Part shown: positions 37,048-62,583 of the stretch, in pieces
Layout: every line of letters begins with the position of its first letter
How positions within the stretch are numbered: the stretch's first letter is position 1
Source: Sphagnum magellanicum
Taxonomy: Eukaryota; Streptophyta; Sphagnopsida; Sphagnales; Sphagnaceae
Reading direction: 5' to 3'
NCBI GenBank assembly: GCA_021904315.1
Contig: CM038914.1
Span: 24,353,065-24,417,064, forward strand
DNA: 64,000 bases
Program-made: the position numbers and the translations under genes
Notes under the pieces: model-generated
What the model was told of the DNA's origin: nothing
The model's database searches: none
Seen by the model: only the letters and a program-made list of their open reading frames with translations

Positions 37048-39567
37048 CTACAACGGTTCACACTTGGTGTCCTTTAATTGGAACAATGAATATCTTGACA
37101 AATCCACCTCCACCAAATTCATCAACAAGTCCAACCCTAGCAAATGTGTCAAACTAGGGCATTGGTGTAATATTAAATGGCTCAACTTTGGCAAATTTTG
37201 AAATGATGGCAACTCCATTAGATTGGGACAATCACTAAGGTCAAAATGTTTTAAGCCTCTTGGGAATGCTTGAACACAAACAAGGTATTTACAACCTTGC
37301 ATACATGACTCAACTAGGGCTTGCAAATCTTCAAAGCACTTAGGAATCTTAGTAACTAATAAATGGTTTGACATGTTGAAAACTTGAAACAATTTCAAGT
37401 TTCCAACCATAGAAAGGTCAACCTCCAATTGGTGACAATTTTTTAGGTTGAGAGTTTTCCATCCATGAAGATTGTGCATGGCCTTCGGTAATGTTTGTAA
37501 TTTAAGGCAACTTGAGAGCTCAAAATAACTCAAATCCTTAAGATCACCAAATGACTCAAGTAATGCATGTAGTTTGGAACAGTACGAAAAGTGAAGATAC
37601 TTCAATTCCTTGAGATCACCAAGTGACGTAGGTAACGCATGTAGTTTGAAACAATATGAGAAGTTAAGATACTTCAATTCCTTGAGATTACCGAGTGATT
37701 CAAGTAATGTATGTAGTTCTTAAGAATTCAAGAGGTTAAAATACCTTAATTCCTTCAAATCACCAAGTGTTTTAGGCAAAAATTGAAGTTGGCAATAAAT
37801 CAAATCCAAGACTTTCAAGTTTTGGACACCTTTCAAAAAATCGTCTAGGATAGATTATATTTGATTGTAAATGTGCACATCTCATGTGCCAAAAATGCAG
37901 TCTTTAGGAGTGAAGTCAAATGGTTATACATGAATGACAAATTTTGAACATTAAAATGTTCCTTTGATTTTGTTGTCCATTTTAATGGGAAATGTTCCAA
38001 ATTTTGACCAACTTGAAAAAGAAAAAGTTCTTTCTTCAAGGGTGTATTGCCATGAACAGATATGTAAAACACTAAGTCTCTCATCACATCATGTATCTTA
38101 TAAGTGCAATCCGACTCTTCTAATGCACCTTCAACCACCTTAATAAACAATCATATCAATGCCCTTAACAAAGAATGAGTGTCTGGACTTGGATCACCAA
38201 TTCTATCTTTAGGCACCAACCCTTCAAGTTCCCAATATGTAGTCACTCCTATATTGGCATTGGATGATTTTCAAGATATGTTGCAAAATTAAAAAAACAA
38301 TCCTTCAAGTGTGGCTCCAAGTTGTCATAACTAAACTTGAGAACTTCAAAAAGTTGCACATCCACATTCTTATTAATGTTTCGTGAATGATCTAATATTT
38401 GGTGTTGAAGCTTCCATTGTTCCACATCAATTTTCCCAAACATTGCTCCACCTATCACCTTAAAAGCCAATGGGAGACCTTTGCACTCTTGAGCCACCAA
38501 ACGGGCCACCTCCTCCAATCCATGGGGCACATTACAATTTGTTGCACCAAATGCATGCCAACAAAAGGGGTTCCAATTATCCTCCTTTGAAAGATGGGAC
38601 ACATGGAACATTTGAACACCTTATTTATGCAATATTTCTTTCCTTTTAGAGGTCAATTCAAAGTGACGCTTCTTGGTCCTTAGCTAAATCAAGCCAATCA
38701 AATTTTTCTTGATGCCAAACGTCATTTAAAACGAAAATACACCCTTCTCTTGATAAATGCATTGTAAAGTTCATGTTTATAATCCTCATCATTAGATTGA
38801 GCAAAATCTAACAAACCCAATTTCTTAGACAAGGTTTGGTGTAATGATTTTCTATGGGGATTTTCCCCATTGTAAACAAAATGAAAGAGAAGCCTTGAAA
38901 GTGTTGTTGGATCTCATGATATTATAGGCGTTTTGAGCAAGAGGGGTTTTTCCAACCCTTCCCATGCCCCGAAGTCCAACATAGCAAAGATTTGGGTCAC
39001 TTCCTTTTGAAAGTAACAATTGCTACAACTCCTTGTTCACAACATCCAACCCAATAATAGATTGAAGTATTTCATGGTGCTCTATTGTGGTTGAACTAGC
39101 AACAATTCTTGGCATCGTAGTAACATGAATTTCATCAATTTGTCTTGTTTGTGCCAAGATTATAATCAATATAGTTAAGCTTAACAACTCTAAAATCCCT
39201 CGCACACATTCTGTAATGTCAATAATGGACTTGGTTGTTCAATACTTGTGCATTAAAAAAACCATTTAAGTTTTGACTTTCCACATTTAGTTACAATTTT
39301 GTTTGCTTTTTCCAAGGTTTTTTCACAATCTTGTAACCAATTTTGCATTGAGTTATGATTAGTCACAAAAATAGGGGAAATTCCATGCACACCAAATTCA
39401 AGTTGCAAAAGTTCAATAGCCTTATTTATGTGGGGTTTAAGATTCATAACAAGGTGTTTGAGAGTGGCACAATATCTTTTACAATGAATGGCCTTTTCAA
39501 GCCTACTCATCACTTCATCCAACACCTTTCCAGTGACATACCCAATAGTACCCCTACTAGGATCCAT
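37048..39567 (-). pseudogene. RPW8-type NLR immune receptor relic, copy 2
   Basis: All parts of an RPW8-NB-ARC-LRR receptor occur in order on the minus strand. The RPW8-like N-terminus is 39567-39253 (VLDEVMSRLEKAIHCKRYC, W-L-x-D-C-EKTLEKA). The P-loop is near 38955-38925, reading GMGRVGKTPLA where GMGGVGKTTLA is usual. The kinase-2 motif FVLNDVW is near 38725. The GLPL motif (ECKGLPLAFKVIGG) and LKDCFFNF are in 38611-38249. The winged-helix part is 38150-37845 (YKIHDVMRDLV, the MHD region) and LRRs are 37677-37048 (LPTSLGDLKELKYLHFSYC). Such proteins signal cell death on pathogen recognition. Stops and frameshifts separate the pieces and P-loop residues are changed, so it is a pseudogene unless it is heavily spliced. 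Confidence 0.85.
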
Positions 39568-41754: not shown

Positions 41755-43867
41755 CTATTTGCTCGACTCAAAGTGAAATACACTTGCAAAAGCAAGCAAA
41801 ACTATGCTGACTGCCACTGGGATCACAATCATAGCCAGTGCTTGATTGATGTTCGGCACTGTGATAGTGGGCACAGCAAGGCTGCCATATTTGATAACAA
41901 ATGCACCCCCAAGAGAACCAACAAAAAGCTTCCCCAAGTACTGCAGGTCTTCCTGCACAAGGAAAAGGACAAATTATCTAAGAAGAGTGCAATCAGTCAT
42001 GCATAGACATGCACTTACAAAGCTTGTAAAAAGGAGGACATTGATCTGCAATTGATGATCAATAATCAAATTTTGCAATGATAACAATGGCCACAACATA
42101 TCAAATAGATTAGAAGATGTCAGCCACATGCATACTTTTAGTAAAGCAAGTATGCAGGAGGAAGAACATGCTGAAAGTTGACACAGATGTTTCCAAACTT
42201 AATCAAAATAAACATGTGTCAAGACAACTAAATATGCACCTCAGACTGTAGAAACTTACATTCTTTCCTGCTACTCATTAGAAGGAAAAGTGTTGCACTA
42301 CAATGGCCAGAAAGCTGCTTATTGAAAGATTGGGAGAGGAAGTTGCACAATCTTGGATGCCTTCACTTCATAGTCTTTTGAGATTTCTGAATATTTGTCA
42401 TCTGCTCTAATGCAAACCAAACAAAAAGACAAGTTGACTCCGGTAGACCTGTTAAGGCTTACAAGGAAGTAAGCTTTATCAGTGCAACCTAATGTACTAA
42501 GCATATCAATGTACTGAGCATGCCTTGTAGACAATTTCATGTCTATCAGATTGCAAATAAAGTTCCACAATAATACATTTAAGGTGACTGCTATTAAATA
42601 ACCTATCTGTTATGATGTTAGATTTGGTGTTGAGTCCTAATGGAAGCTAAGTATATAAAACATGCCTGAAATTTTGGACAAAAAATATATGAAATTTGCA
42701 TCCTGGGCTTCTGTCGCATTTCCATACAATATTCTAAACTGATAGTACATGCAGATGCACCAAGCTATTGGACTTTCTGTCACATGAACGTGAACAACAA
42801 CTGGATGTACCTAAATTATGAACCTGAGGTGAACCCAGCAGATCCCACAATAACTCTAAACTCAAGCACCTCAGCCTGGAAAGTGTACTTGGGATGGGGT
42901 CACCAAGCAAGACCCTTGGCATTGCAACCATATAGAGGCCCATACTGACAGCATAGGACCAAGGCTCTCAGTCACACCAATCAGCATCAGAGTTTAATTT
43001 TGAATCCCACTGGTGAACTTGCATGCAAATGCTTGCTGAATGGCACATCTGTTTTAAGTCTTTTCAGGCAACATCATCTTGATGATGTGACATGAAGAAG
43101 CAGTTGCCAAGAAATACAATGGGAATCGGACTCTCACATCAGTGTTGCTTTTAGACAAATGCTCCTTACTGTCTCCTAGGCAGCCTATTCATGGTGTTAT
43201 CCAGTGTTTGAAAAGCATTCTACACCCGTAATAGTTCATGTTTAACCATTGCAAGTGCTTAAGGAAAAAAATGTTGAAGGAAAGTTTGAGGGAGCTTTCC
43301 AAGACCAAAGACAAGGTGCAGTGGCCCCAATCTCCCTCAATTTCCAGTTGGTTCTGAGTTTTGTAACATGCAGAGAGCGGCCGAGAAAAGCTACTGGTCA
43401 TACCAAGACCTGCTGCAATGAGATTCTCCGCATCTTCACAAAAGGAAATGAAGACACCCGCAACATCGCAACGACCCACAGCCACTTGCAACAAGGACAA
43501 AGAGCTATAAAGCCATGGCCAGACGTGAAGCTCAGCACAGAAGAACGACAACAATGATAAAGAAAACGCTTACAGAAGCAAGAAGCTCTCGTTTCTCTCC
43601 TTCTTTGCCATCTCCTTCAATAGACGAAGCTCTCGACGACGACATGCCTTCTCTCATCCTCCTCCTGGCTCCTCCTCTCCTGGGCGGCCATAGCCGCAAC
43701 AAGTGTGGATTAGAATTCCCCAAAAAATCCCCACAATTCTTCCGACTGCTGTTAATCGCAAAGAAACAACTCCTACACGTAGAGCCTCCAGGCATGAAAC
43801 CGAAAGAATTGCAATGCCGAAAGCAAGGAGCTGAGAGCAAGGGCAACGCCATGGCCATGGCCATCAC
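41755..43867 (-). CDS. small plastid-targeted membrane protein (partial model)
   Basis: Three exons are supported on the minus strand: 43867-43574 (98 codons, donor GTAAGC), 42045-42019 (nine codons, INVLLFTSF) and 41952-41755 (65 residues plus stop). All are in phase 0 with proper AG and GT ends. The first exon begins MMAMAMALPLL and is rich in Ala, Ser, Cys and Arg with few acids, like a chloroplast transit peptide, then turns acidic/basic (EGDGKEGEKRELLAS). The last exon has Gly-rich and hydrophobic segments (VGSLGGAFVIKYGSL; IVIPVAVSIVLLAFASV), so the protein likely sits in a plastid membrane. I could not place the exon or exons between 43573 and 42046 and do not recognise the family. A telobox and a G-box lie upstream. 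Confidence 0.55.
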
Positions 43868-43905
43868 AACGTGATGTCACTGCGTAAGAAGAGATGGTAG
43901 GATTT

Positions 43906-43923
43906 ACCCTAAACCCTAAACCC
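43906..43923 (-). promoter_or_regulatory. telobox (two AAACCCTAA units)
   Basis: ACCCTAAACCCTAAACCC lies about 40 bases upstream of the start codon at 43867. Short telomere-like boxes at this position are a known feature of plant promoters and 5' leaders, especially of growth-related genes. It is far too short to be telomere. Confidence 0.6.
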
Positions 43924-43967
43924 ACATCCTATCCGGTTCTCGCCTGCCAAGAGTGGTCGAGAGGCCA

Positions 43968-43979
43968 AGCCACGTGGCT
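43968..43979 (-). promoter_or_regulatory. G-box palindrome
   Basis: AGCCACGTGGCT is a perfect palindrome with a CACGTG core, about 100 bases upstream of the plastid membrane-protein start. G-boxes bind bZIP and bHLH factors and are common in light-regulated plant promoters. Confidence 0.6.
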
Positions 43980-44246
43980 GCCACCTAACAGAATGGCCGT
44001 TTATGGTAAGGTGGCCGTTTATGGTTCAATGTTTTGGAAGGGCATCAAAGGCCACTATGTGTCTACCTAGTCTTCAACTATGCAGCTCAAGGTATCCTAC
44101 CACTTGATGTTCGGGCACCAAACAATTCAAAAAAGGTATAGCCAAATAAAGAAGAAAATTTATTGATATTTGCCAAAACTTTTGAAAATTCATTCCTTAT
44201 CCCAACCATTGGGTTCCTAGTACAAACACAAAAGGTGTATTTTGTG

Positions 44247-44352
44247 TCGGGTAATGCCCAAGGATAAGGGCATTACAAGAATAAGGGGAACACATGAGGC
44301 AGTAGTCAAGCGTAGGATTCGCATTTTGGTAATGCCCTTGTCCATTACCCGA
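44247..44352. repeat. inverted-repeat pair with internal hairpin
   Basis: TCGGGTAATG and GGGCATTAC appear near 44247-44276 and again, inverted, near 44330-44352 (TAATGCCCTTGTCCATTACCCGA). The left half is itself a hairpin with a perfect 9-bp stem (GTAATGCCC / GGGCATTAC). The total is about 106 bp, so it may be a tiny foldback element. Confidence 0.65.
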
Positions 44353-44359
44353 TGTAACG

Positions 44360-47130
44360 AAACTGCTAAAAAATTTCTTTACAAAACTTTTAGTCATGAT
44401 ACACTAAGACAAAACAAGATTAAACGATAGATATTCAAATTCAAAATTGAAAACAATCTTTAAATACAAAATTGTTTGACAAGGATCATATTAAACTTGT
44501 TTTTATGTATTCTTGATTGATTACAATAGGAAAGTTGCATGTCTTTATTTGTTGATTACAAACTCTTGCATCATGTTCTGCAATTGCATTGTAGATTACA
44601 AAAAGCCTCCATCAATGTGAAACACTAAAAATGTCAAAATGGATCCATGAATTTCTAAATCAAATTTCAGTGCTTAGAGACTTGCTTGTAAACCACTAAA
44701 TGAAACATGCAACTAGATTCTCACTACCAACATATAACATAAGAAATCTTTAACGACCAATGAGCACCATTAGTACCATGTCAATGTATTCCCAGTTCAA
44801 CATTCCAAGCAAAATCTTCATAAATATATTAACTTATCTTGTCAATGTCCTCCTATACTTGCATAGCCAAATAAAACGTATAGCAAAACATTCGCGAAAC
44901 TACAACAACAATGCAATGTAAAACATTTCACAAAACATATTGAAATAAATTATAATGGGCATTACATCATTGAAATTACTTCATGGTTTTGTACTCACCA
45001 ATAAGATCAACTCAAAGTTTCAAACCTAAACTTGTTTACAAGTTTGAAATTCTTGGAGTGTAGTTTATTAATGTCCTTTCAATCCAAATGTTCCAACACA
45101 CTGCTTCTTCAAGTGTAGAGGTTTGCACCAAAAAACAACCACTAACGTCCATAAACACAACACACATTTTGTCTAGATGATCCAATAACGGATTCACAAG
45201 TAGCAAATAAAGTGGAATGAAAAGGCACATTTTGTGCAAATGATTTGACAATGTTCTCACAAGCAAATAACAAAAAGGAATGAGAATGTCAAAAAATAAA
45301 TTCATGAGAAAATGAACAAGCACAATGTCATCATTGCATTCTAAGACGAACAAGAGCAATCATGCCATGTTACGACTTAAAGAAACTTTAAATTGAATTA
45401 TGCAAATCAATCCAAATCAACGATTACAAATAAAGTGAATGGATACAATTGAGACTAGATGAAAAGTTGTTGGATGGAACAAATATGTTTTCATCCCCAA
45501 CCCAATGAATATATCACTTTATATTCAATCCAACCCGGCCCTACCCTAGAGATAGGCCTATATCTTGTATCCTAGATTTAACAATTATGATTATTTAGAT
45601 CTTTAATCCAATGGTAACAAATGTGTCACCAACCAAAGACAATCGATGGTGGATAATGTGTTGACTTTAACATACAATATAGATCCTACCGATCAATGAT
45701 GTACCCTTGGGATTCCCCCAACCAAGATCCTACGATGCAAATATCACTAACTTTAAAACATATAATGTCCTAGAATGGATGGTTGAAATCCATCAACATC
45801 AACAGTTGAAATTAAAAAATGTTAGAGGCCATTTTTCATAGATGAAATTTTTTTGGATGAAGATGCCATTTATCATCCAAAATGGGATGAATTAAATAGC
45901 AAATAACTACCTAGTTGTATCTTAACTTGATTGGATGGCTAAGATTTTTTCAATTTAACATCAATGGTCAATTTGTGAGACGTAATTTTGACAAGGCTGA
46001 TTATTAGATCTCGTTGACAAGAAGGGGTACAATGGAAATGCCATCGACATATAATCTATGGTTGAAATGTGATCAAGGTAATTCTAAAGCAACCTATCAA
46101 CAAATGACCCAATGACCATTGTTATGGACAATCATGATTTAGGTTTTTCCTCCATCAATGGTTGAGATGCAAATCATCTTGGACATCAAATATGCATCAA
46201 GATACCTATATAAACCAATGTTTGATCATGCTCTTCCTCTTTTTGTGTTGCACTATCGGCTATTGTTCTCGATTGAGTTTTGATTTTTCTTGGCCTTGTC
46301 AAAGGCATCCAATTTTGTGAAGCTTTGCATTTTTTTTGTGTTGTGTTGAAGGTGTTCTCCCAATAAAGGTTGCAATTATTTTTGTGGAATGGAAGGGGCT
46401 CTATTTTGCAAAGCTATGTGGATTTTTTTTTGGTGTTGAAAGTGGTTTTCTTGCAAACTATGCCATTGTTTTTGTCATGGCGAAGTCGTTGTCTCTTACA
46501 AACTTTGTGGATTTTTTTGTTGTGTTGAGTGCATCATGGAGATATTTTGATTTCATTGCCACTCTCCTTCTCTATTATTGTTGTTGCATATTTTTTTCAT
46601 ATCCATTGTATTTTTTTCTTTGCTTTCTCTTCCTTTCTTAATATTTTTTTGTTGTTTGTCACTTTGCATTGTCATCAATCCATTGTCGATTGGTTTCTTT
46701 TCAATGCGGTTTTGGATATTCACATGGTTGGTGGATTTTTATTTTTTTTCATGCGGTTGATGGTGATGGTGTCTTCAAATCACTTTTGTACATCTCAAAA
46801 TAAACTATGAAACCTACTATTACATCATTAGTTCGTGTTGTAGTAACAAGATCACAGTCTTTGGAGTCAACCAACTAATTGCCAACTTGTGTGATTTTAG
46901 TTTTATTTTCCTTGAAAGTTTTTTGGTCCTAATATTAAAAAATTTCTTGTTCTATCTTTTGTCCATTTACATTTTTCTTTTCAAACTGTTTATTTTGTTT
47001 TGTTTTTATATCCTTGGGTTGTGTTTTTCATGTTTTGTAAGCAATGATCCTATAATTTTGATTAGTTGTTATTGTAGTTGGGTTTGATGGATTTTGTAAA
47101 TTGTTTGTTTGTTTATATTGCAAATCAAGT
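44360..47130. other. intergenic, no gene supported
   Basis: 44.4-46.2 kb shows nothing. At 46.3-47.1 kb the plus strand is T-rich, so frames there are artificially hydrophobic (Phe, Leu, Val). The part next to 47140 could be the 5' end of the recombinase relic. Confidence 0.35.
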
Positions 47131-47139
47131 TGTTGTTGA

Positions 47140-48590
47140 TGATGATGTAGAGGAGCTTAATAGTGCTGGTGGAGAGGAATTTTTTTTTAAAGGCATTTAT
47201 GAAATATAGGAAGTCTATTCAACTTGCTTGTTAAAGACAATTACCTTGATCCTTGTACTTATGGAGAGTATGGTGATGAGGAATTGAATCTTGTTATCAA
47301 TGGTGACGATGATGAAAAGATCAACCATTGTTTCAAGGATCTCAATTTTCAAGAGTTGAAGAATGTGATGGCCAGCAGACATCAACACAATATTCATTCC
47401 GAAATTTGGGCAACTAATGCATTTGATGCATGGCATAAACTATAAAAAGTTGGATACCTCATTATCGATTGTGGAATTACAGCTTTTAAACCCAAGCTAC
47501 TTGTCAATTACCTTTCAAAGTTTTTGTTGCAAGTATTGAAAAAAAATGGGGAATTTTATCCTCCTACTAAGTTTTCTTCCTACTCCTATATTTATTTCAT
47601 TTGTTGGTTTTTTTATTTGAATAAGGTTTTAAAAATAATTGATGGTGCTATTTTTGTGGTTGTTTACAACATAACTAGTCTATTTCAAACATTTGGTAAA
47701 GTGATATGATTAAGAAAGGTTGTGCAAGATATAGAGATTAATAACTCAAGTCTAAAATTCAGCATGTATGCAACAACGATGTCTTTGAAAGAGTGAAATT
47801 GATTGTGAATGAAGCCATTAATAGATCTATGGTTGTTGGCTTTGGGAGAAGTATCACACAATTAAATGTTTTTTCTTTTTTGGAAGAGAAGCTTATGCTA
47901 AGTCAAAAGAAGCGTCAATTAACTTCACCTCAAGCTGTCAACCTTCAATTTGGCTATTACTATACATGGAATTTTGTTATCCATGGAGCCCAAGAGTCGA
48001 AAAGGGTCAACAATATGGACTTATCCCTACATGAGGATGAATTTGGTCCATTTTTGAGGTAATATGTTCTATATTCAAATAAAGATCTTTTATTTTGGGT
48101 GTTGAATTTTATTTTTTCTTGTAAGATGTTTAGATTTTTTCAGTTTTATGTCTTCTTTTTTTATAGGTACTAACAAGGCCAGTCAAAAAACTAGAAGTTT
48201 GATGTTGATCATTGTGATGTGGAACACCATTGGCCAACAATTAACTAAAACATTACAAACATAATCGAGATGTATAAACTTATGATTTTTCATTAGCCTC
48301 CATTTGACAATGCTTCTTTACCTTATCCATTTTTTGTGATGCCCAAGGTCAAAGACTTTGAGGTTACAAAACATACTTGGTTCATGAAAACACATGTAGG
48401 TAGGAACACTCTTGGGAAATTGACCAAGAAGTTTACAAATGATATCCCAACCCTAAAAGGTAAATGAATTGTTAATAAGATTGGGCGAGGCATTGTGATT
48501 TCAAGAATGGAAAAATTCGATACAATAGAATATGGTTTGATGAAATTTTTAAGGCATCACAATGCCAAAAGCTATAGGTTTTTTGTTTTA
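47140..48590 (+). pseudogene. DUF3504/Crypton-like tyrosine recombinase relic
   Basis: The plus strand reads in one frame from 47224 to 47709 with a single TAA at 47443-47445: WATNAFDAWHKL, LLVNYLSKFLLQVLKKNGEF and YPPT. It then shifts to 47793-48058 (GFGRSITQLNVFSFLEEKLM; FVIHGAQES; DLSLHEDEFGPFLR). A 108-bp intron (GTAATATG...TTATAG, 48059-48166) restores the frame, which runs on through WFMKTHVGRNTLGKL and NKIGRG-x-VISRMEK to RHHNAKSY, with five in-frame stops. The order matches the DUF3504 domain of ZMYM2/KIAA1958-type proteins, derived from Crypton tyrosine recombinases: an N-terminal SAM-like part, an Arg-containing motif (here His replaces it), a WY...GKNTLG-like stretch, then H-x-x-R and GH...S-x-x-Y. 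Stops and lost residues make it dead. Element ends were not found. Family assignment is by remembered motifs. Confidence 0.6.
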
Positions 48591-48599
48591 TTTATTTAT

Positions 48600-49230
48600 T
48601 TATTTATTATAAAATTATTTTTCTTTTGTTTCATTTCATTCCTATCTTTTCTTATATGTTTTTTAATTAATTAATTTATGTATTTAATGTGTTGTATTTC
48701 CAAGTTCCTTTGGTCTTTGTCATTTCTTATTGTTTTTTCTATTTTTTATTATGATGTTTATGTTTTCTATGTGTTTCTTTTACATTTTCTTTGTTTTTTT
48801 TGTCATTAATAATGGTTTTTTGTGGTTGTTGTGCAAGGGTTACAATAAAATATTTTGTTTTAAAAAAATAACAATATACATTACATCCTTTATTTGTTCT
48901 GAAAATATTATTTTTGTTTGTAAATGTTTAAACCACAATCTTTTAGGTGTGCATAACATCAACATAATTGGTACTTAAATGAATGAAGTTTATGGGTCAA
49001 TGTCCTTCCCAAGACCTCGTTCACAAAATGTGACTTTGTTACTTGACGTGTCATGAAAGGCAACTTGAATTGCATATGTTATTTCGTTTGATGAAACTGA
49101 AGCATTGAAATAATGTCACTGGCATTTCGTGACTCCTCCATCAACATGTCATTTATTGTTCAAAATTCATGCAATATTGGCAAGCCAACATCCAACCCAA
49201 CCAAAGGAGAAGCTTGATGAATGGATTCAT
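48600..49230. other. T-rich intergenic DNA, no gene seen
   Basis: Frames at 48730-48978 are hydrophobic only because of T-runs. A TTTA-type run near 48590-48610 is the only repeat. Confidence 0.4.
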
Positions 49231-49238
49231 TTATCCCT

Positions 49239-49913
49239 TTAATCACATTCAAAACTTCCTTGGCTAATTGATGCCTCTACCAAATATAGTAATATTTTGG
49301 TGTTGTCCATGCACTTGTTCAACATTAACTTTGCATGAGTCAAGGTTTTCTCAAGGTCATCTAACCATGTGTTTAATAAAAGCTTATCTTGATTTGTACA
49401 ATGAGACACTAGGGCTTGGCCTAGAAAACATTGTAGTTGCAACAATTGAACATTTAAACTACAAGAGTACTTGTAGTTGATGGCAATTTTTATAGATTTC
49501 AATGCATGATTCAACAACATTTGTGTCTAAATTGTAACAATACAAAGATTGGACCCTGGCTCTAGCATGATTGGAACTCTCTTTCACCTTCATGGCACTT
49601 AATAAAATTTCAACCTTCACATGCCCCAATAGTGCATCACCTTTTGGTTGACATGTTTGAGTTCATTCAAACAATAATGCCACTAGACTTGACAAATGAA
49701 GAGATTATGCCATTTCCTTTGCAATCTCACATTTACAAGCCCCTCCTTTTGGGACATATGCACTTTTTGAGACACATAATTGGTGATTGCTAGGTGGGAG
49801 GACTCAAAACAAAACTTGTCTAGTCCATATAAGCAAGTAGACCGACTTGTATAACCATAGCACCCATTTCTCTCTACACCCAGCAACTTGAATCCCCTCA
49901 GAAAATTCATCAC
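49239..49913 (-). pseudogene. RPW8-domain fragment of an NLR
   Basis: The open frame 49520-49239 includes WLDDLEKTLTHAKLMLNKC, closely like W-L-x-D-C-EKTLEKANKIVTKC in the RPW8 part of the NLR relic at 39.3 kb, and upstream of it the same spacing of basic and leucine residues. A second open frame, 49913-49683, lies upstream on the same strand and may be part of the same relic. No NB-ARC or LRR part follows, so this is a fragment. It is more diverged than the two copies at 31 and 38 kb. Confidence 0.55.
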
Positions 49914-49919
49914 ATCAAA

Positions 49920-51930
49920 GATGCCTCTACAAATCTCTTGTTTGACTTATTGCCTCTAATTTTGTACACCCATTTATTTACTCCTGAGGAATGAATCTTC
50001 AGAAGTAAATCAAAGAAACAATTATCCTGACAAACTTTGGATGCTCACGTGATCCAAACTTAATTTGAACGCCCAAATCAGCGCACAGCACAATTCCAAC
50101 TTCTCTTCAACTCTCCACGTTCAGAGCCTTGAAATTGATGTGACTAAAAGTATAAATCACTATAAATCATAGGACCAAAATCTATTGATGAACTTTCCAT
50201 CACTGTTGGGCCATGGAGAATTCACTCAGAGCATATGCTAGTAGATTGTAAGTAGACTTGATCTGGTACACAAAACTGAAGTAGTTTTCACAACACCACA
50301 ACTAAAAAAGGATCATAGCTCTTGTCCTGGTGTCCCATCTAAACATTTGCAGACCAGAAAGCTAAAGATCTTAGAGAATATAACTTCAGACCAAAGATGT
50401 AACTGGATCTGCCTCACTTCTCTAGTAAGAACTCTACTAGATTTGTTCAAGGAATGATCAAATTAATTTTCCCTATATTTGTGATGCAGTCTCCCTTCCA
50501 CTCCATCCCAGGTCAGCTTTTTGGAACAAACCTAGCGATCCACTAGCTTAGAGCATCTCCAGAAGTGCACAGTACATGACCCTGCACAAATATTTCTCAC
50601 ATCCAAGTTCAGTTTTTTTTTTTTTTTTTCCAATGCCACCCATAAAAGTAAAACTGGGACTGCATATATATGTGTGAGACTACTAATAGCAAACTACCTA
50701 CATCAATCCTTATGGTTGGCGAATTGGAAATAGGGATCAGCAATCAAATCGTATTTATTACACTCTTCTCTAGTAGTTGTTATGGTTTGCTGTGCCATTT
50801 ACCAATCTCAGGAAATTGTGCAAAAATGCTCAGCCAAAACCATTTTGCTGAGCCAAACTGGCATGTTTGACTTTTCTTCATCCAATTTTAATTTCCAGGG
50901 TCACACACTGAACATAGGTGGAGTCGCTCTTAGTTTCAATATGTGTTTCCTTTGGTTGGTTCTCTTCTAAAACTCATCAATTATGACAGCTAGACATCCA
51001 AACTGGTTGCACATGGAGCTTTATGCTAGCAAATGTTGGAACAATAGTGTTTGAATTATAGCCATGTTTTCTGTGGCTTTGAACTTGATGAACTTGTCAA
51101 AAGAACGAGCTTTAGAGAGAAAATCTGCAAGTTGGCATGTGTACCCACTCATATAGCTCAAATAGATCAAACACCAAAAAACCATGTTTATCAAATGGAG
51201 CTTCTTGCAATTAATTTGTACATACTTTCACACCAAATTTAGCAATGTGAATTGGGGTTAAAAAAATGTTGCTTGGTCCTTCAGGTTGTTAAGCAACTTA
51301 TGAAAATTTCCAAATTCTTTTTCAAAGCTTTTCATCGATCCTCTCATATTGGCCAAGAAGCTTGAATATAGGATTGACTGTATAAGTAAAGATCCCAAAC
51401 AAAAGGATTGATACTCAGAGTACTTTTGTATAGTTTTCCATGTAGACTACCTTTGGAAAGGTTTTTCTCATCTTGTAATGAATTTTCTTTCAACCCTAAT
51501 TTTGATTTATTTGGGTCCATGTCTTTCACATTCAATTATATTCCAATGTTTCATTGTACTTCCATTTTTTTTAGGAATTTGTTTCTCTTCAAATACATGA
51601 AATGGGGTTTAGATTGCCTACATTTGGTAGATTTGACTAACTGCAGAGGTAGTTAAGATTTAAGACTTGCAAGTTGTAGCCTCTGAAACAGGGGTAAGTG
51701 ACACCCCTATTCAAAATTTGCACTCAATCCTGTTTTTTCTACCACCTAATTTGTCCCTCTTGCCTCAATCATTTTCTTTGCTAAATTGGCAAGTCATTTT
51801 CTCCATTAGATTATGGTAGAAATTTCATGATCTGCAGGTCCTCCAGGACCTTTAATTTTCCTACCCGTAATTGATAGACGAACACAACCATTTATTGATT
51901 TAAAAAAAAAATATTCATGCCCAGTAGTTA
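49920..51930. other. intergenic, no gene seen
   Basis: Contains a T-run near 50612-50630. No frame has a motif and no duplicated unit was noticed. Confidence 0.4.
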
Positions 51931-51934
51931 CCAG

Positions 51935-52065
51935 CACTACTACAAAATGTGCGTGCTGTTCATAATTCTAGTGAACAGAGACTAATGAATTCATTACTTT
52001 TTCACTAGTCCGGTTCACTATAACCAGTGAATTCACTTGATGTACAAGGACACTTTTTGTTAGTG
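51935..52065. mobile_element. 131-bp CACTA-type miniature element
   Basis: It begins CACTACTACAAAATGTGC and ends with the inverse of CACTAACAAAAAGTGTCC, giving imperfect terminal inverted repeats of about 18 bp that start with CACTA. The flanks are CAG and GAG, an imperfect three-base duplication. Internal AGTGAA and TTCACT words are repeated in both orientations. No coding capacity, so non-autonomous. Confidence 0.5.
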
Positions 52066-53129
52066 GAGGTAGGCCTGAGGGCTCAAAATGCAATCTAAAT
52101 TTTCAGAGTGCCACGTGGCATCATTTAAAACACTTTCAAAGGAAAGCTGAAGGGTGACCAACCAGTCATCAGTGTAGGTGCCGCAAGTTGGCCAGGGTGA
52201 ACCAGCACCCATGTTGGTACCTTGACCTTTTTGAGTGAGGCCTCTTAGTGGCCATCTTAAGCCCAAAAAATGTGAAATCTGAACTCAGACACTCTGATTT
52301 AGTCTTAGTATGGGATATTTGTAATGTTTAGAAATAATTTAAATGGACTAGCTTGGGTTCACCCAAAGGCTCTCAAGTCACTGTGCCCTTGTTGGCTGAT
52401 GGAATATCATTGAAACTACTTAATAGCAAGATGGGAATTTGAAAAAGTTTCTCAGAGTCCACAATTTTTTTATAAAAACAATCAAGGCATTGAGGCTAGT
52501 GTTGCCCTGTTATTGGGGAATTGTTTTAAAATAAATATGTTGGGTACTAATAAAGGGCACAATGACAGGCTATTCTATTCTATTCTATTCTATTAATTTA
52601 ACGTCAATACCCGGACCAGAGAGATCCATTTATTGCAACCTACATGCCGGTTCTCACTAGCAGCAATATTTATTTTGGGGAAAAAAAAAAGGTGAGCTAG
52701 AGTTGCACAAGAAGTCCAAGACCATATAATTCACAGGGCTGTTGTGAAAATCCCCTCCGATCTCATTTGTATCATTAAATCCATCAGAGACATGTCTGTG
52801 GACATCAGTTGCAGAAAGCGTCCAGGTGCTGAAGAAGACTTATGTATGCCAGAGAGAGACGGACGTAGTCAATAAAAGACAGCAATAGGCCTACCTCCAC
52901 TCCAGGTCCCAGAAGGGACCAACTAGTTGCATGCAGCCTCACTTACCATTCGGTAACCACACACCAGGCATTAGTCATACAAGGTTTGGACAAGCTTCTA
53001 AATGACATTTACCGCTCATCGGGACACCCTGAAATTTTGGTGATAATTTCAGTCATGCTGATGAATATACTTCATTCTCTCAATATGGTTGTATAGGTGT
53101 GAAAGTAAACAATTCAAATTGCAAGCATT
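52066..53129. other. intergenic with short microsatellite
   Basis: A (TATTC)n run of about five units lies at 52571-52597. The part from about 52850 to 53129 is probably the 3' flank of the minus-strand gene that follows. Confidence 0.4.
52571..52597. repeat. (CTATT)n microsatellite
   Basis: Five uninterrupted CTATT units followed by AATTTAACG. Confidence 0.85.
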
Positions 53130-54725
53130 CTATGGTAAGGCCTCAATTTCTTTTGAGGCCTTTGCAAAGGATTTACAGATGGCCAAACCAGCAGCAACAG
53201 CAAAAACTGCAACAACTGTACAAGTTATTCCAACTCGAGGCCCATAAATCACCCACGAACTGAAGCTTATGGCAATAAGGCTCCATATTGTGTCTAACAG
53301 TACCAGAATTCCAGGGATGCCAATCAATGGCCCAATTTTGCACACCCAGACCCAAGCAACATGGCTTGGGTTGCCAAGCAAAGTTCCTAGAAAATAGGCA
53401 GTGATTCCCAACCCAAGGAAGTCTAACAGCAGAGCTAATGTCCACAGTCCTCCATATACTTCTAATTGCCAACCAGACATATTTGGGGCATTGCTTACAA
53501 ATGGTTGGATTGCAATTCCAGCTAGAAGCGTCTCCTGCACAAAACAACAGAATTTTCGGAGTGAGTATTGGGTTTCACTTGCTTGTCAACAGATTTAATG
53601 CCACTTCACAATTCTACACTTTCGCCTTTCTTCCAGTCAATATTTTCTGAGAAAGACGAATCATGACATGCAACTGGAGCAACTCTTCTGATTTTTGAGG
53701 ATGAACTCACTGCAATAATGAAAGTGCTCCAGAGGTTCTGAAAATCTTTTTGTATTGCATGACCAGCTGCTTCTTTGTTTTCGAAGTAGGATGGCCATTC
53801 TTCCAGCTGGTTGACTGGGTCCTCAAATACCCTGGAGAGTTCCCTGAATGTTTGCAAAACTGGGTCTCTCTTCATGTCTTCCAACTGTTCATTCTCTATT
53901 GTTGAAAGTGTTGATCTCTTTTTGTACCCAGTTGTATCTGTATTATTTTCTGTACACCACACACAAACAGAAGACACAGCCCTCCAATCTCTGAAAAGTT
54001 ACCAAATCTGTACCTACTCCCCAGGGCCAAATTGCATGTCTAGTATACCAATATTTGACTCTTACCTGACTCACATATCATAAAGCATTTGTGCAGACAA
54101 GATTGAAGACAGAATGATCTTGTATTACCATATTCCAAATGGTCATGTACAAATTGCTGGAAAGCAAGTGCGTGTCTAATTTTTCAGAAAACACCCTATT
54201 TCAAATGCTCGGCACTGAAATCCAGAACTAGTCGTTTCTTTCTCCCTGGTGGCATCCATCCATGCCACGAATTAAGGACAATCGCAACATATTAGAATAG
54301 AGAAATAGAATGTTACTCATTTAGTCTTGGTGCTAAGAGAACATGACCCAATGCAGAGTGTCATCAAAAGTGCTCATCGGATAGATTTGGCAAGTCTGCC
54401 CTGCCACTTGATTTCTAAACAAGAAGAGTAAAAGAGAGGCTCGAAGAATTCTCCGAAGCTATAATTTCAACAGCGGTTGAGGTGAGGCAGGTTGGAGCAT
54501 GATTCTATGCTTTTACACAGACAGGAAGTTGGAAACACATTTATTGTAGATGAATTGCAGCCTACCAGTTTCTGTTGATTGATTTGATCTTTGAGAAAAG
54601 CTATTCGCTGATGATGGGAGTCCATTCATGCCTGTTTCTTGTGCGATGCTCACTGGTGAGGGTATATTTGAGTTAGCTGGAATGGTATCGAATGTCATCC
54701 CATTGAATTGAGTTGAAGAAGCCAT
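53130..54725 (-). CDS. 267-residue multi-pass membrane protein of unknown function
   Basis: Three exons join exactly in phase: 54725-54566 (start ATG, donor GTAGGC), 53949-53711 (acceptor TACAG, donor GTGAGT) and 53534-53130 (acceptor GTGCAG, stop TAA). Residues 1-53 are Ser, Asn and Thr-rich and look disordered. Residues about 54-133 are hydrophilic with a predicted helical part (DPVLQTFRELSRVFEDP, EEWPSYFENKEAAGHAIQKD). Residues 134-267 hold three or four membrane segments (GGLWTLALLLDFLGLGITAY; VCKIGPLIGIPGILVLL; VGITCTVVAVFAVAAGL) and end in a charged tail. No signal or transit peptide is obvious. I do not recognise the family. Clean splice sites and an open frame indicate a working gene. 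Confidence 0.8.
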
Positions 54726-55950
54726 TGATATTCAGCCTCAAACCAAATTGCCTGCAAATCACCAAGAACAATTGGCATTAAAGTTGGATGTAATGTTCAA
54801 GTTTGTGTTTCCAACAAGCTCAACCCAATTTTTTTGAAAAACAATCAACTGCAAAGTCCTTTACAACCATCATCTGAAAAAAAATTACAATCCCACTGCA
54901 CTACATAACTGAGTTCAAATCCTGCTCTTCGAATATATACGTACCTGAAACTCATATGCTAGCATGAAAGGTAACTGAGAGCGGATTATCACACCTGAGA
55001 TGATTTCCAAGGCCAACAAGCTGAAAGTGCTCAAAGTTGGTCCCACGTCTTTTCGGCCTGGACTCCTAGTGTAAAAGTGGGCCTTACTTCACAGACTGTA
55101 GCAAAAGCCTGCTGCTACCAAATGGAGCCTTGGAAGCCTTGAGAGGAAGGATGTGCGAAAAGAGGAGTGACACACTGAAATGCTGAGAGTGGTGGCAATG
55201 GGCAAAATATCATCATCTTCCTCCTTTCATGCCTTGCCGACAATTGATGTTCGCACAAAATATAATTCACCAAAAGTCTAGATGAAAAAAGCTTAAAAAG
55301 TTATTGATATTGTTGAGATTGTCAAAGAGAATCAAACTCCCATTGGGTTACGAATATAAATCCGCAACACAAGGTGTACTTTGCATACTTATTCCTCAAT
55401 TGTTGACATTCTGAAAAAGCAAATCTGAGATTATTCAACCTGCAGATGGCTGGCTGTGGACAGCCTGAACATTCTGGAACAAGTGCCTGAATATTACACC
55501 CAAACCACTTCTTTTGTATGAGAGGACTTAATTCCCACTGGCAGGCACCAACCTTTATCTATATAGGAAATTTCAATGTTGGGTGGTTATTCACATTTTA
55601 ACCGCTTGTTTTGGTTCTTAAAATCTTTTAATTGAAGAACCAAGATATAGTTCTCAAATTTTTTGAAAAAACATTCATTCGTTGTTTTGGTCCTTTATTT
55701 TTATTTTCCTTGATGCTCAACTGGTTCTTTCACAATGGATTCTTAAGATCAGTTGGTTATATTGTTAAGTTGGTCCTTTAACTTCACTTTCAGATTTTAA
55801 TATTGAAATCTTTAAATGTTTTTTCAAATTTTTATAAGCTAAAAAATGTCAACAATTGTTAGAAAACTATAATATGTAAACAAAAACATGTGATAACATT
55901 TCAAACATATACAAGGCCAAGAACAATAGATTAGTCTTCCTTCAATTCAT
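54726..55950. other. promoter side of membrane-protein gene, no further gene seen
   Basis: Likely contains the 5' leader of the minus-strand gene, perhaps with a leader intron. The rest is unassigned. Confidence 0.3.
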
Positions 55951-55969
55951 CTTGCTCAAATTAGTCTCC

Positions 55970-56492
55970 AAACCCATCTAATTCATGCTTTAAGTCTAAT
56001 TCAAAATTATCAATTGTAACAAATTATTAGGGGCCTTGCGACCCACCTTTGCATCATTTGGCCAATTCTTATTCACAAAAATTAATTTTTCAAGGTTCTT
56101 TGATTGTAAGTGACATTTCCTCAAATTGGTAAGAATTTTAGTAAAGGGAAAAATTTCATAGTTTCAATTTGAAAATTTACAATCTCTAATATATGTTTAA
56201 CTAAAAAGCCAATAATTGGAAATATAGTTTCATGTTTCTTCCACCACTCCAAAAGGCATTTGATATCTTTTGCATCCACCTAATATCTATGAAATAACAA
56301 TAATTCTTGATTAACAAGCTCCTTTGTAAGTTCATTGGTGTTGGCCACCATTTCAAAAATGTCTAAGCTATTCTCTTTGTCAATTTTATAATCAAAAGAA
56401 TTTTCAACTCTAGACAATCGATACAAATGTTGATGAAACTTCAAGATTGTAAGAAACAAGGATTTTCTATCATATTCTTCAACTATGGCCAT
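55970..56492 (-). pseudogene. hAT transposase C-terminal relic (minus copy)
   Basis: Frames on the minus strand from 56492 read DAKDIKCLLEWWKKHETIFP and then, after a frameshift, TNLRKCHLQSKNLEKLIFVN and KNWPNDAKV. The W-W ... F-P ... L-x-x-N-L-x-K-L-x-F-x-N order is that of the hAT dimerisation domain. The residues that normally give E-R-x-F-S are degraded (IETMKFF). Only this end of the transposase is present. Confidence 0.65.
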
Positions 56493-56499
56493 GAAAAGA

Positions 56500-57470
56500 G
56501 ATCAATCTCAAACTCTTGAATCTAAAATCTAAGATCAAGGCTTGCATATTATGGGCTTTTCTTTCATCTTATCTTATTAAAAAAAAAGGAAAAAGTCAAT
56601 CATCCCTCTTTTTAATGTTCTTTGTAAATAATTCAAATGAATTATCAACCCATATTCATCGTCATAAATCAAAGCATTTGATAAAGGGGGATGGCTCATT
56701 TATTTGTTTAGCTTTAGGCCCATGGATATGAGTGCATTCAAGGCATCACTCAACAACTAATGACCTTAGATTGGCTTAAAATGCAAGCAATATCAACAAG
56801 AAACAAAATGTTTATTATAATTAGTGATATATGTCATGTGAGTGCAAGAGAAACATGATTAATGACCTTAGGACCAATTTGCTTGCTATGTTAAAGGGCA
56901 ATGGTTTCTTGGAGTTGAAGGGATTCTCAAAACATAATAACTTTGCTTGTAAACTTGCACAATTTTATTAATTAGAAATAAACATTTTGGAGTACAAAGA
57001 TTCAAAGCAATGAAAAGGGGGAAAACAACAAAGTAACTTGCTTTTTATTTTGTTTTGATTGATGTGTTCAATTAACTAGGCTTGAAACCTGCATAATGCA
57101 ATCCCTCATCCATTCCTGTTTTTCTTTCCTTGATTTTTTAGGCCATGTAATACATTTCTACAAAAAAATTAGGCTTGATTTTTCTCCGTCATTGGCCTTA
57201 TTGAACACTTACTAAAAAATGGAAAGGTCAAGTGAAAATTAAAATCAAAAGGTGCAAAATGAAGGTGAAATAATATTCACAAGTGAAATTGAAATTGAAG
57301 AAGAAATGAAAGGAATTGAAAAAAACCCAAGTTTGCAAATAGAGTCTTGCAAAATCTCAAAATTGAATGAATAAATCTACAAATTGAAGAAACAAAGAAT
57401 TGAACAAATTTTGGAACAATTACATCTTAATGAATCTTTGTTTCCGATTGTTGCATTTCTTGCCCATTAA
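56500..57470. other. spacer between opposed hAT fragments, no gene seen
   Basis: AT-rich, with purine-rich AAATTGAA words at 57230-57420. No motif-bearing frame. Confidence 0.4.
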
Positions 57471-57482
57471 ATTCTTGTCGTT

Positions 57483-57625
57483 GTGGGATCTCAAATAGCA
57501 ATTGAAAAAATATTTTACTTGGATGGAATACTTACAAATTTGAAGAGATGTCACTTGCAATCAAATAATTTAGATAAATTAATATTTGTTAGCAAAAATT
57601 GGCCCAGTGATCTTAAGGTGAGTTG
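57483..57625 (+). pseudogene. hAT transposase C-terminal relic (plus copy)
   Basis: The open frame reads GSQIAIEKIFYLDGILTNLK then RCHLQSNNLDKLIFVSKNWP, nearly the same protein as the minus copy but on the opposite strand. The similarity stops at about 57620, right where the likely Helitron 3' end begins, so a Helitron insertion may have cut it. Confidence 0.65.
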
Positions 57626-57724
57626 TAGTTCACATACTAGTTTGACTAGTTTGAACCTTGTGCTTAATGCACATGTGTGTGTGTATTTGATGGTACATAT
57701 TACAAAATTACAATTACAAACTAC

Positions 57725-59757
57725 ATTTCCAAAACTTCTTTATATACGACATTTCGCATGTATCCATCGAAACCTTAGCCGTTGAAAATCTTGATGTTTG
57801 CACTGCTTGTGACCCTTGCGATAAGAACATACAGTTGACCATGGGAATAGACTAGAGACGGCAAATATACCCCAACGTTGTTCAATGTCTGACCTTGACT
57901 CTTGTTGATTGTGATCACAAATGCCACTCAAACAAGAAGTTGACGACAACGCAAAACAAATGGCTAATCGATCCCAAAGGGGGACATGATGATGCAGGGT
58001 ATGAACACACATTTGCCGACATTGTTCCGTGTGATGATCTTCGTTTCAATGACATGTTGACCCAATCTCTTGACAATCAACTTCGTACCATTGCACAATC
58101 CTATTGATTGATTGAAATTACGCAACAAAAGGATTGGCACACCCACTTTGAGTTCCAATTTATGATTTGCGATATCGTTGAATTGCAAAGTGTTCAAATT
58201 CCACCGGATACAATGAATCCATTGAAACTCATGTAGTAGCATTTGCACCTTCTTCTATCGGAGTCAAAGAATTTGCGCTTAAGTACATGTGCAATTCTTC
58301 AGATAATGATTCTATAATTGCATTGTTGACTTCATCAACGTCAATATTTTTGGGGGCCTGAATGTTACGTTACATAAGATACATGGCATCTCTAGAGTGG
58401 CGTTGGTGATCCGGATAAATGGTTCAGATTAATCCTTTTAAGCTACAATCTTCTACTGGTAGCCTCACATGGGACGGAATTTTGATCCAATCTGGATCGA
58501 CACCTTCTTCTTCTACAATGGCAGGAAGACTACCATCTCCAACATTTTACACCCATTTGGCAAACTCTCACTACTCTTCAGAATTGGCTACCATGATTCG
58601 CATGTTGATATGAAGATGAAGAATTGTAACATGCTGCCAAAGATGCGATCGAAGCAACGAAGCACTGACAATGTCTTCTCGTCTTCCTTTGGGAACAATA
58701 GGCAAGATTTGTCGAAAATCCCCACCAAGGACCACGGTTTTCCCACCAAAGATCTTCTTGGTTGCCTGTGCGTCATCCAATTACATCAAATCATGCAGGG
58801 TCTGATCAACAATTTCGAAAGTTCGGTGATGCATCATCGGTGCCTCATCCCAAATGATCAAATCAGTTTTACGCACCAATTTGGCCACTTTCATTTGTTG
58901 TGTGATGTTGCAGGTCGACTCATGGTGCAGATCAATCAGAATCTTGAATCTTGAATGGGCGGTTCTATTGCCTAAAAGCAACAAAGATGCAATTCCTGAT
59001 GAGGCAACTGCAAGCATGACTTTGCCTTGCCTTCGTAGACGGGATAGAAGCGTTGTCCAAACAAATGTTTTGCCGGTTCCACCACTGCCATACACAAAGA
59101 ATAGTTTGCCCTCTTTGTTTGTCATAGCATTCAAAATAGTTTCATATGCGCTACGCTGATCATCATTGAGCGTATCTTCTGCATTGTCTGCATTTGTGGT
59201 CAATGAATGCTGATCATAAGCCAACTTTTCTTGGACTAATTGGTTTCATCCATGAACAGAAGGGACGTAATTAGACTTGGGAAGCGTTGGAAAATCTTTT
59301 AAGCAGTGTCCGTTGCGGATGAGAACTTGATCGATCTCATACAATGCATAATCCTTTAGCGCATCTTCATAAAGGGTAACAATTGGATCATCACGCTCGC
59401 GACATGTCATTGCTTCAACATCATCGCTCAAAGACTCCTAATGTGCATCCCATAGTTGTTTGGGATTCGTCACCTCACAAAACATCAACATGGAAGCAAA
59501 TATGTCATGCATCTATCGTCTTGAGGCCCAAAGACCGGCTTCTTCCAAGGCTTGATGCCATTCATTGTCATCTGCAAGCAAACCCATTACAATGCATGCA
59601 TCTTTGAATGTGTTGTGCTCTGTGCCATCCATTGTCAACAAAAGCTCGTAGGATGTGGCACCTTTGACGTAGTTCAACAGCATTCGCAAATAATAACGTT
59701 CACCCGATGTCGGGTGTGCATAATACATGTGACCAATGGCAAAGTCTCTCTTGCGCA
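57725..59757 (-). pseudogene. Helitron RepHel relic, PIF1-like helicase part
   Basis: From 59757 downward: RKRDFAIGHMYYAHPTSGER and LLADDNEWHQALEEA (open frame 59758-59513, the linker region), then helicase motif I GSGGTGKT near 59080, motif II DLIIWDEAP near 58850, motif [12 protein letters not shown] near 58720, LKVGVPILLLRNFNQSIGLC NGT near 58110 and [12 protein letters not shown] near 57905. PIF1-like helicases unwind DNA during rolling-circle transposition. One stop separates the two main helicase frames at about 58781 and others follow, so the protein is broken. The Helitron linker and Rep part mean this is not the host PIF1 gene. Confidence 0.88.
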
Positions 59758-59760
59758 TTG
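59758..59760. repeat. left target-site duplication TTG of the CACTA element
   Basis: TTG directly before CACTAGTAGAAA, matched by TTG at 62958-62960. Confidence 0.8.
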
Positions 59761-60109
59761 CACTAGTAGAAATCAGCCAAAATGTAACCAGTCAATTTAC
59801 GACTACATGCGACTTATAGTCGTTTGCGACTAGATTTGAGAATATTTGCAACTACAAGACCAACTTTCAACTATTTTGGTCATTTTCACAACTATGATGC
59901 AACTATTAGAAATTTCATCCTATTGGTTACATCAATTTTACATTTATTTTCATCCATTAATAGGTTGATATGTCCCATTAGTCACAATAGTCACCAAATT
60001 AGTTGCATCCTAAAGGTATTCTATAATGACATACGGGTATATTTTAATGTATGTACTAAATTATATATATATATGCATACATATGTATATTGTTCATATA
60101 ATGAATCGC

Positions 60110-61130
60110 AAAATTAATATTTGAACTTTGAATTTTTTTATTCAAATATGAATATTGATATTTCAATTATGAAAAAATGTTATTTTAACTTTATAAAAAT
60201 TTTATTAAAATTTGAAACTTGATATTTGAATCTGAAAATTGTTATTTCAATTGTTTAAAACATTATTTGAATTTGAAAATTTTGATTGAATATGATATTT
60301 TCAATTCAAAAAGACTGATTTGATTTAAAAATTGACTTTGAATTCTAAATTAATATTTTCGAATCCAAAACTTAGTATTTCAATTCAGAAAATTATAATT
60401 GATCATAAAAATGGATTAATTTGAATATTCCATTTAATTTTGAGTATTTTTATGTGAATATGAAATTTATATTTCAGCTATGAAAATTTTTCATTTATAT
60501 TTTAAATAATCATTTAATTCGAACCTGAAATTTAGATTTTCAAAATTAATACTTCAAGTCTGAAAATTAAAAATTGAGTCTAAAAATGGACATTTCAATT
60601 TTGAATATTGTTATTTGCATATGAAAATTAACATTTCAATTCTGAAATTTTTTATTTAAATTCAAAAAACTTTTTTGATCTAAAAACTGATATTTGAATT
60701 CTAAATTATTATTTTTGAATCTAAAAATTATTATTTAAATTTAAAAAACTTTATTGACTCTAAAAATTGGCAACTTGATTTTAAATATTTTTATTTCAAC
60801 TTCAAATTTGATATTTGAATTTTGAAGTTTAAAATTTAAATTTTAAGAAATTATTTGACTTGAAAGTTGAAATTGGAATTCCATATTATTATTTTGGATT
60901 CTCAGAATTAATATTTCAATTCAGAAAATTATTAATTAAGTCTTCAAATGAAAATTTTAATTTTGAATATTATTATTTGAATCTGAAAATTAACATTTCA
61001 ATTCTGAAATTTCTTATTTAACTTCTAAAAACTTCTAAAAACCGATATTTGAATTCTGAATTACTATTTTGGAATCTTAAATTTATATTTTAATTCAAAA
61101 AATTATTGATTGAATTTCAAGGGTTTTTTT
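60110..61130. repeat. diverged tandem array, about 175-180 bp units, AT-rich
   Basis: Sections such as GATATTTGAATTCTAAATTATTATTT recur at about 60330, 60680, 60860 and 61035, with weaker copies between, linked by TTTCAATTCTGAAAATT-like words. About five or six diverged units can be traced. Confidence 0.6.
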
Positions 61131-62319
61131 TACTAGTGCTATCCATAATAAATCACTTTTATAAATAATTATAAATGATTATGTTTATTAAATCTAAGTG
61201 ATACTAAATAATTATTGTTATGACATAGATTTGTATATTATATAATTTATATTATTATATTAGAAGAAATTAATTAAATAAATTAATGTGACATTACTTT
61301 AAAATCATTGTAATTACTTCATATAAGAATTAATTAGTATGTGCATAATTATTTTCTAATTGAACATAATTATTCACACTCTTTAATTTATAACTTCAAA
61401 CCTGAATTAAAAATTTGGAAAAAATTATAGTGTAGTTGGAATAATTATTTTATTGATTTTAATTTCACGAATTATTATACAATAATATTATCTTAAAAAA
61501 TTCTGTGATTAATCATCTATGATAAATATTTTATAGTAATTTTATAGTAATTATGAAAATTAATGTTATGTTTAACAAATTATTATATTTATAGTTAATA
61601 ATTACCAAGAGAAAAAAATTATTTGACCTGTAATAATTTTTACAAGAATAAATGTTATTATACAATAAATAATGTAATTAGTTGAATAATAATTCTTCAA
61701 AATTTTGTGTAAGAATTTACTTCTTAATAAAAAAAATTAATTCATTATATATAATTTTAAAATAAATATTTAAAATATTTAATTTTAAATTATAACCATT
61801 AAATTTATTTCATATTAATTATATTATATATAGCTCGATCAGATTCTAAAAAGTAATTAAATATTTTAAAATATTTTATTATTTATGAATTATGTATTAA
61901 TAACTTGTGAGTAACTAGATAGTTAGTTTGTCAAATATGAAGAAGGTATTACTTATTTAAGTAATTGATAATGAATACTGAATATTTGTAGTGTATAGTT
62001 TATAATTTAAATATATGTAAATTTCATCATTATGAACTAAATGATTATTTAATTATTTAGTACTTGAATTGTTTAAAAATCTAAAAACCCTAGAAAATAA
62101 GGGATGAAGAAAGCTTTGGAATTACAACTTAGTTTGTAAGGAAGTTGCAACTTCAAAACTTATCCCATATTGTTTGTTCTCCATTCCTATTTTGAACACT
62201 ATATAAACAAAGGGGTGTGCCTATGCAATTTCACATTAAGAAGTTTGTGCACATGGGATGAGCTAATCAAAAGGCTCAACCCAAAACAAAAAAATAAATA
62301 ATGCACAATTCTTAAGTAC

Positions 62320-62546
62320 ATACCTCCCCAACCTACTTATTTATCTAGCTAGGTAGGTACCTAGTTTGACCTACCCATCTAGGTCAGCCTATGTACCTAC
62401 CTATTTAAGTACCTACTTATATGAATAGGTATTTAGCCTAGGAAGGTAGAACCTACCTATTTACTACTTTACCTAGGTAGGTAGGTAGGTAGGTAGGTAG
62501 GTAAGGATTGTAGGCACCTATTTATGTACCTACCTAGGTACCTACC
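62320..62546. repeat. ACCT / AGGT tetranucleotide cluster in both orientations
   Basis: Degenerate TACCTACCT words at 62320-62420, then an uninterrupted (AGGT)n run at about 62474-62504, then TACCTACC again. The opposed runs can pair into a long hairpin. Confidence 0.85.
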
Positions 62547-62583
62547 AACCTAATATTAATATTTTTATTAAATTATTTTTTTA

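Follow-up and report, generated by a model that had tools for sequence, protein, structure and literature searches.

The window analysed here, by which we mean the whole stretch of 64,000 nucleotides from the moss Sphagnum magellanicum (assembly GCA_021904315.1, contig CM038914.1, positions 24,353,065 to 24,417,064 of the forward strand), contains at 47140-48575 what, judged from its sequence, is a tyrosine recombinase (YR) gene with introns, now decayed, lying within a longer element whose recognised parts are collected in Table 1. The window also carries, both on the minus strand, a Helitron_like_N fragment (Pfam, E 3e-14) at 63315-63926 and an LRR fragment like the LRRs of plant resistance proteins (best E 1.9e-7) at 37048-37677, together with a carbonic anhydrase match below the cut-off and a very A+T-rich stretch at 60001-62000 with 16% GC in comparison to 35% for the window. 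Scans of the window with Rfam (gathering thresholds) and for tRNAs were empty.

Table 1. Features of the element copy in the window (window positions, unless contig C8 is named)
Feature	Position	Strand	Remarks
Left-end palindromic module	44241-44355	+	Start of shared homology; inverted repeats; hairpin fold; site scan
Element 5' region	44356-47139 (about 2.8 kb)	+	About 65-80% identity to other copies; no codon periodicity, no recognisable protein domain
YR exon 1, N-terminal part	47140-47570	+	Frameshifts; stop at 47443-47445 in the longest frame
Intron 1	47571-47696 (about)	+	Donor GTTTTC retained; acceptor decayed, its putative place taken from copies L036 and L044
YR exon 2 with box I FVIHGAQE	47697-48058	+	Putative ancestral Arg codon, now CAT, at 47982-47984
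Intron 2, GT-AG, 108 bp	48059-48166	+	Sister copies interrupted at the same place
YR exon 3	48167-48575	+	K-x-x-R, and the His step preceding the tyrosine; five stops
DNA foreign to the element	48576-64000		Breaks the gene where exon 3 ends; continues beyond the window; may be several nested insertions
Parts of the copy beyond the window	Intron 3 homology resumes at C8:24468335; exon 4 at about C8:24468396; right end at C8:24469205-24469365		

The gene at the locus and its profile match

Four exons and three introns were recognised in the YR gene, and the intron places recur in sister copies, in which the splice sites are not always intact. The first-pass annotation had proposed a 108-bp GT-AG intron that removes a frame break, and this is borne out: with GT at 48059-48060 and AG at 48165-48166, the excision of intron 2 keeps the frame, and sister copies confirm the intron. 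That annotation allowed for a single intron, however, whereas introns 1 and 3 are now recognised as well. Its count of five stops past the intron proved accurate, these being in order TAA, TAG, TAA, TAG and TGA, all in frame, and the H-N-A-K-S-Y segment which it took as terminal is present, but the protein does not end there: the last residues of exon 3 in the sister copies are GHxNAKSYAK-like, and after them come an intron and then an exon 4 starting YDQT-like. The K-x-x-R of exon 3 has its Lys at 48477-48479 and its Arg, a CGA codon, at 48486-48488. Exon 4 with the catalytic tyrosine was moved about 66.7 kb off by later-inserted DNA and lies outside the window; a reading of the break at 48575 as a 3' truncation was dropped once the right-end search and copies L053 and L054 revealed the displaced exon. 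The tyrosine of exon 4 stands nine residues past the His, which we take to fit the spacing of the catalytic tyrosine, and the gene had at least four exons.

For comparison with protein families, read-throughs were made by joining exons over the introns and writing X for each stop or frameshift, the frames of the window copy being picked by alignment to sister copies and not to DUF3504. The read-through of the window copy matched Pfam DUF3504 (PF12012) over positions 1-159 of 162 of the model with an E-value of 3.6e-4 and 21.0 bits, in comparison to a curated cut-off of 29.7 bits, which it does not reach; the scan that gave this value covered 7 of the 9 sequences in alignment A1, which itself holds 9 of our 20 sequences. 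The signal appeared only after exon joining, as the four unbroken pieces of the window copy, taken separately, had no DUF3504 match in Pfam. In a Pfam scan of nine family members, DUF3504 was matched by four at E<=10 and not by the other five, no other family was matched by more than one member, and reversed or shuffled versions of the four matching members did not match DUF3504 in any of 8 cases. The first-pass annotation had seen here a Crypton-like DUF3504 tyrosine recombinase relic in a plant genome and had named a profile search of the joined exons as its check; the search has now been run with the outcome just given, and the proposal is supported by the DUF3504 match, the clean controls and the sister copies.

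A single DUF3504 E-value is not decisive alone, because one of 29 unrelated open frames of the element reached an E-value of 0.0015 in a chance match to Rgg_C, and the case is carried by the exon layout, splice sites and catalytic motifs that recur in sister copies, not by the lone E-value. A search of the genome with the DUF3504 profile gave no match above the cut-off and four weak places, among which L047 is a divergent member of the YR family, the top place L045 was not family-like once its frames were read, and L046 and L048 appeared unrelated to the family. Further searches gave one PHROGs match only (unknown function, E 0.25), two unrelated matches only among PDB sequences (E 1.2), and no relative in a viral-contig scan with an exon 2 piece.

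Copies, ends and catalytic residues of the family

The DNA search of the genome, which has 31 contigs and 438,994,042 bases, found 25 matches, some being parts of a single copy. A protein-level search with an exon 3/4 mosaic as the query, in which 150 of 276 candidates were scored, found at least 155 at E<=0.1, spread over contigs C1 to C19. Among the protein-level matches listed, most contain stops and the few stop-free ones are partial matches, one of which, L055, was found to be broken elsewhere on reading; no intact copy of the family was seen, nor any target-site evidence or transcript. Homology between copies begins at 44241-44245 of the window (in comparison with L029, L038, L041 and L042), which moves the start of the element from 47140, as first annotated, to near 44241, and in other copies it stops near position 6971 of L029, giving an element of about 5.9 kb in L029. 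The flanks outside these common ends are unrelated, save for segmental duplicates and scattered repeats; the family shows the pattern expected of a mobile element, numerous copies that have their ends in common but sit at unrelated places. An inverted subterminal match, ACTGCCAAAAAATT on the left and AATTTTTTTTGGCAGT on the right, was seen by eye in the decayed ends, and no clear codon periodicity was found when two copy pairs were compared over the 5' region and one pair over the 3' region.

The median pN/pS in frame was 0.46 for exon 1, 0.50 for exon 2 and 0.51 for exon 3 (78, 66 and 66 pairs, respectively) in comparison to 0.68 to 1.10 in shifted frames, the reading frame itself having been chosen via protein alignment. 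These comparisons and those of the splice sites omit L026, L027 and L028, which are segmental duplicates of the window copy, and keep the near-identical pair L032/L034. Since the in-frame values fall below the shifted ones, constraint on the YR protein probably acted during the spread of the lineages. In a tree of 17 of the 20 sequences the tips are long and the inner branches mostly short, a shape as after a burst followed by decay.

The segmental duplication joins window positions 42723-54000 with C18:17486600-17496599 and with a place on C17. Identity to the C18 duplicate is 90% in the element part and 96% in a left flank, while in the C17 duplicate the element is split inside intron 2 into parts about 35 kb apart on opposite strands. 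The gap before element homology resumes is about 66.7 kb in C8 and about 8.3 kb in the C18 duplicate. The insertion at 48576 is older than the duplication, because its first part is common to the C18 and C17 duplicates.

The catalytic residues were scored codon by codon across copies, low-scoring exons being dropped by the score thresholds of the exon and codon scoring. The box I codon in 17 scored copies was CAT in 11, TGT in 3, and TAT, CAC and TGA in one each, and never Arg; these counts include duplicates, as the window, C18 and C17 copies share one event and L032/L034 are duplicates too. A CGT-centred pattern searched genome-wide gave 11 matches (CAT 7, TGT 3, TAT 1, CGT 0) and none for the reversed control. 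Since a single CpG transition leads from CGT to either CAT or TGT, which differ from each other at two positions, the simplest reading of these codons is that the ancestor carried the box I Arg. The change from Arg to His claimed for box I in the first-pass annotation is retained, not as a mark of this copy but as one of several outcomes of CpG decay across the family. CpG depletion was considered as a hallmark of the element and set aside, with values of 0.25 to 0.39 in element stretches in comparison to 0.31 for the whole window; as the depletion is not special to the element, the CpG argument stands on the codons alone.

At the second Arg position, CGA or CGG was found in 3 of 17 scored copies (the assignment for L036 being uncertain), CAA, TGG, TAG or TAA, which are codons of the decay type, in 10, and other codons in 4. 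All 16 scored copies, L044 and L047 among them (40% and 33% identity, respectively, to the first row of alignment A1), retain the Lys of K-x-x-R, and it is found also in L055; the box II position is Lys, not His, in 16 of 16. With duplicates included, as also for the Lys, the His is retained in 14 of 17 scored copies and the Tyr (TAT) in 10 of 11, and the Tyr is present in L053 and L054 as well.

The left-end palindrome

The left end of the window copy contains a hairpin at 44247-44352 (the module as a whole, folded as 117 bases with RNA parameters, gives -45.7 kcal/mol), which consists of two inverted near-palindromic sites of the form GGTAATGCCC-8 bp-GGGCATTACC with 10-bp arms, one at 44250-44277 and the second, shortened by a deletion, at 44328-44349. 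Sites of this 10-8-10 bp form recur at the left end of other copies, and they resemble the recombination sites of YRs, which according to Kojima and Jurka are typically two inverted repeats of 11-13 bp placed 6-8 bp apart (PMC3212892, in part). The count of arms and spacers took only arms within 4 mismatches and by its design cannot tell whether the arms have been conserved better than the spacers.

Allowing up to 3 mismatches, the 10-8-10 site occurs 1758 times genome-wide in comparison to once for the reversed pattern. Four hairpin-bearing places were read, and the hairpin (about 115 bp, with paired sites) was present in all four, two of which share another inner sequence. Of the left-end DNA hits, 9 of 30 had a same-strand YR match within 10 kb downstream, a figure that rests on a partial YR list, namely 54 of the at least 155 protein-level matches plus two places from the DNA search, with the remaining listed rows inspected by eye, and that omits one hit which is the same palindrome read backwards. 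The palindrome as an element-specific recombination site is weakened by the 1758 genome-wide copies and by the presence of a downstream YR in only 9 of 30 cases. The palindrome may belong to the element as its recombination site and be shared with non-autonomous relatives, or it may equally be an unrelated MITE-like repeat that the element carried. A larger proposal, which we regard as unlikely, is that there is a separate Crypton lineage of land plants, in this moss at least, that is marked by introns and by the Lys of box II and whose left hairpin consists of two YR-type sites, the 1758 sites being non-autonomous relatives or footprints of the same recombinase.

Nature of the element and comparison with known systems

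Taken together, the results make the window copy very probably a dead member of a family of Crypton-like DNA transposons, which spread through the moss genome and had one recognisable gene, for a DUF3504/Crypton YR. The YR protein would cut and rejoin DNA via the tyrosine of exon 4, in the order Arg ... Lys-x-x-Arg ... His ... Tyr, and the element would move by site-specific recombination, perhaps, by analogy with what has been proposed for fungal Cryptons, via a circle. The activity would have ceased long ago. Decay is shown by stops, by frameshifts and by the box I arginine having been lost, and the window copy was split by an insertion and duplicated along with its neighbourhood.

A YR retrotransposon (DIRS, Ngaro or PAT type) that has lost its reverse transcriptase part, or has it elsewhere, would likewise have a YR and inverted repeats, such as the inverted-repeat sequence at the ends here, and DIRS1-like elements and the Kangaroo of Volvox are known in green plants and algae (PMC4157794, in part). 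We nevertheless hold this to be very unlikely: the 29 open frames scanned in four copies, namely the window copy, L029, L036 and L038, are short and decayed and gave no match at E<=1 to reverse transcriptase or RNase H, nor to another transposase; the 5' and 3' regions lack codon periodicity in the few pairs compared; and the profile match is to DUF3504. A reverse transcriptase in the element is unlikely on these frames, and since the scanned pieces yielded none, a Crypton fits better than a DIRS element.

It is likewise very unlikely that the copies are pseudogenes of a host gene that was domesticated long ago from a Crypton, a plant counterpart of ZMYM2 or KCTD1, and then duplicated with its introns. 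The three introns in the coding part and the lack of any intact transposon copy among those seen would agree with such an origin, as would DUF3504 itself, the domain of domesticated animal genes (PMC3212892, in part), but copies on many chromosomes share the 5' region and the 3' end with common boundaries, the tree has its long tips and short inner branches, and the ancestor's catalytic residues look present, in contrast to the DUF3504 genes of animals, from which the catalytic site is gone (PMC3212892, in part). A domesticated DUF3504 gene would be an intact, conserved host gene without catalytic residues; what was found is a multi-copy, decayed family. That the frame is a chance one unrelated to tyrosine recombinases is scarcely credible, for although the Pfam score lies under its curated cut-off and an unrelated frame matched another family at E 0.0015, several members match DUF3504 at compatible positions with none of 8 reversed or shuffled controls doing so, and recurrent features of the copies include catalytic motifs, splice sites and frame constraint.

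With respect to the literature, the 2011 survey of Cryptons covers animals, fungi, oomycetes and a diatom, with one DUF3504 gene in the mitochondrion of a green alga (PMC3212892, in part), and no described Crypton of a land plant or moss was found in the portions of the literature available to us, which cover sources other than Repbase, where a CryptonV group is named. A 66-bp label Crypton-V in the Metrosideros genome (PMC13084152, in part) comes from automatic RepeatMasker annotation only and was not taken as the description of a plant Crypton. Should a land plant have such a numerous Crypton-like family with introns, YR DNA transposons would range more widely, and the question would arise whether plants inherited them or acquired them by transfer. 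The recurring 10-8-10 site would offer a way to test directly what a recombinase of this kind recognises.

Among the known systems, DIRS1, PAT and Kangaroo elements are similar to the moss element in their YR gene, in inverted-repeat sequence at their ends and in having hosts among Viridiplantae (PMC4157794, in part), and differ from it in that no reverse transcriptase was detected in the moss element (29 open frames from four copies). Fungi, oomycetes and a diatom have CryptonF and CryptonS, which are YR DNA transposons like the Crypton-like element proposed here; they are associated with terminal direct repeats of 5-6 bp, and CryptonF proteins carry GCR1_C (PMC3212892, in part), which was not matched in Pfam scans of the moss read-throughs. 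CryptonA and the DUF3504 genes (KCTD1, KIAA1958, ZMYM2/3/4, QRICH1 and WOC) share with the window copy the DUF3504 match over nearly the whole model, and CryptonA shares with the moss element the single recognisable YR gene, with no reverse transcriptase in the moss pieces scanned. The moss family differs from CryptonA and these genes in its host, in the Lys that replaces the His of box II and in the three introns of its coding part, and the animal DUF3504 genes are domesticated and without a catalytic site (PMC3212892, in part).
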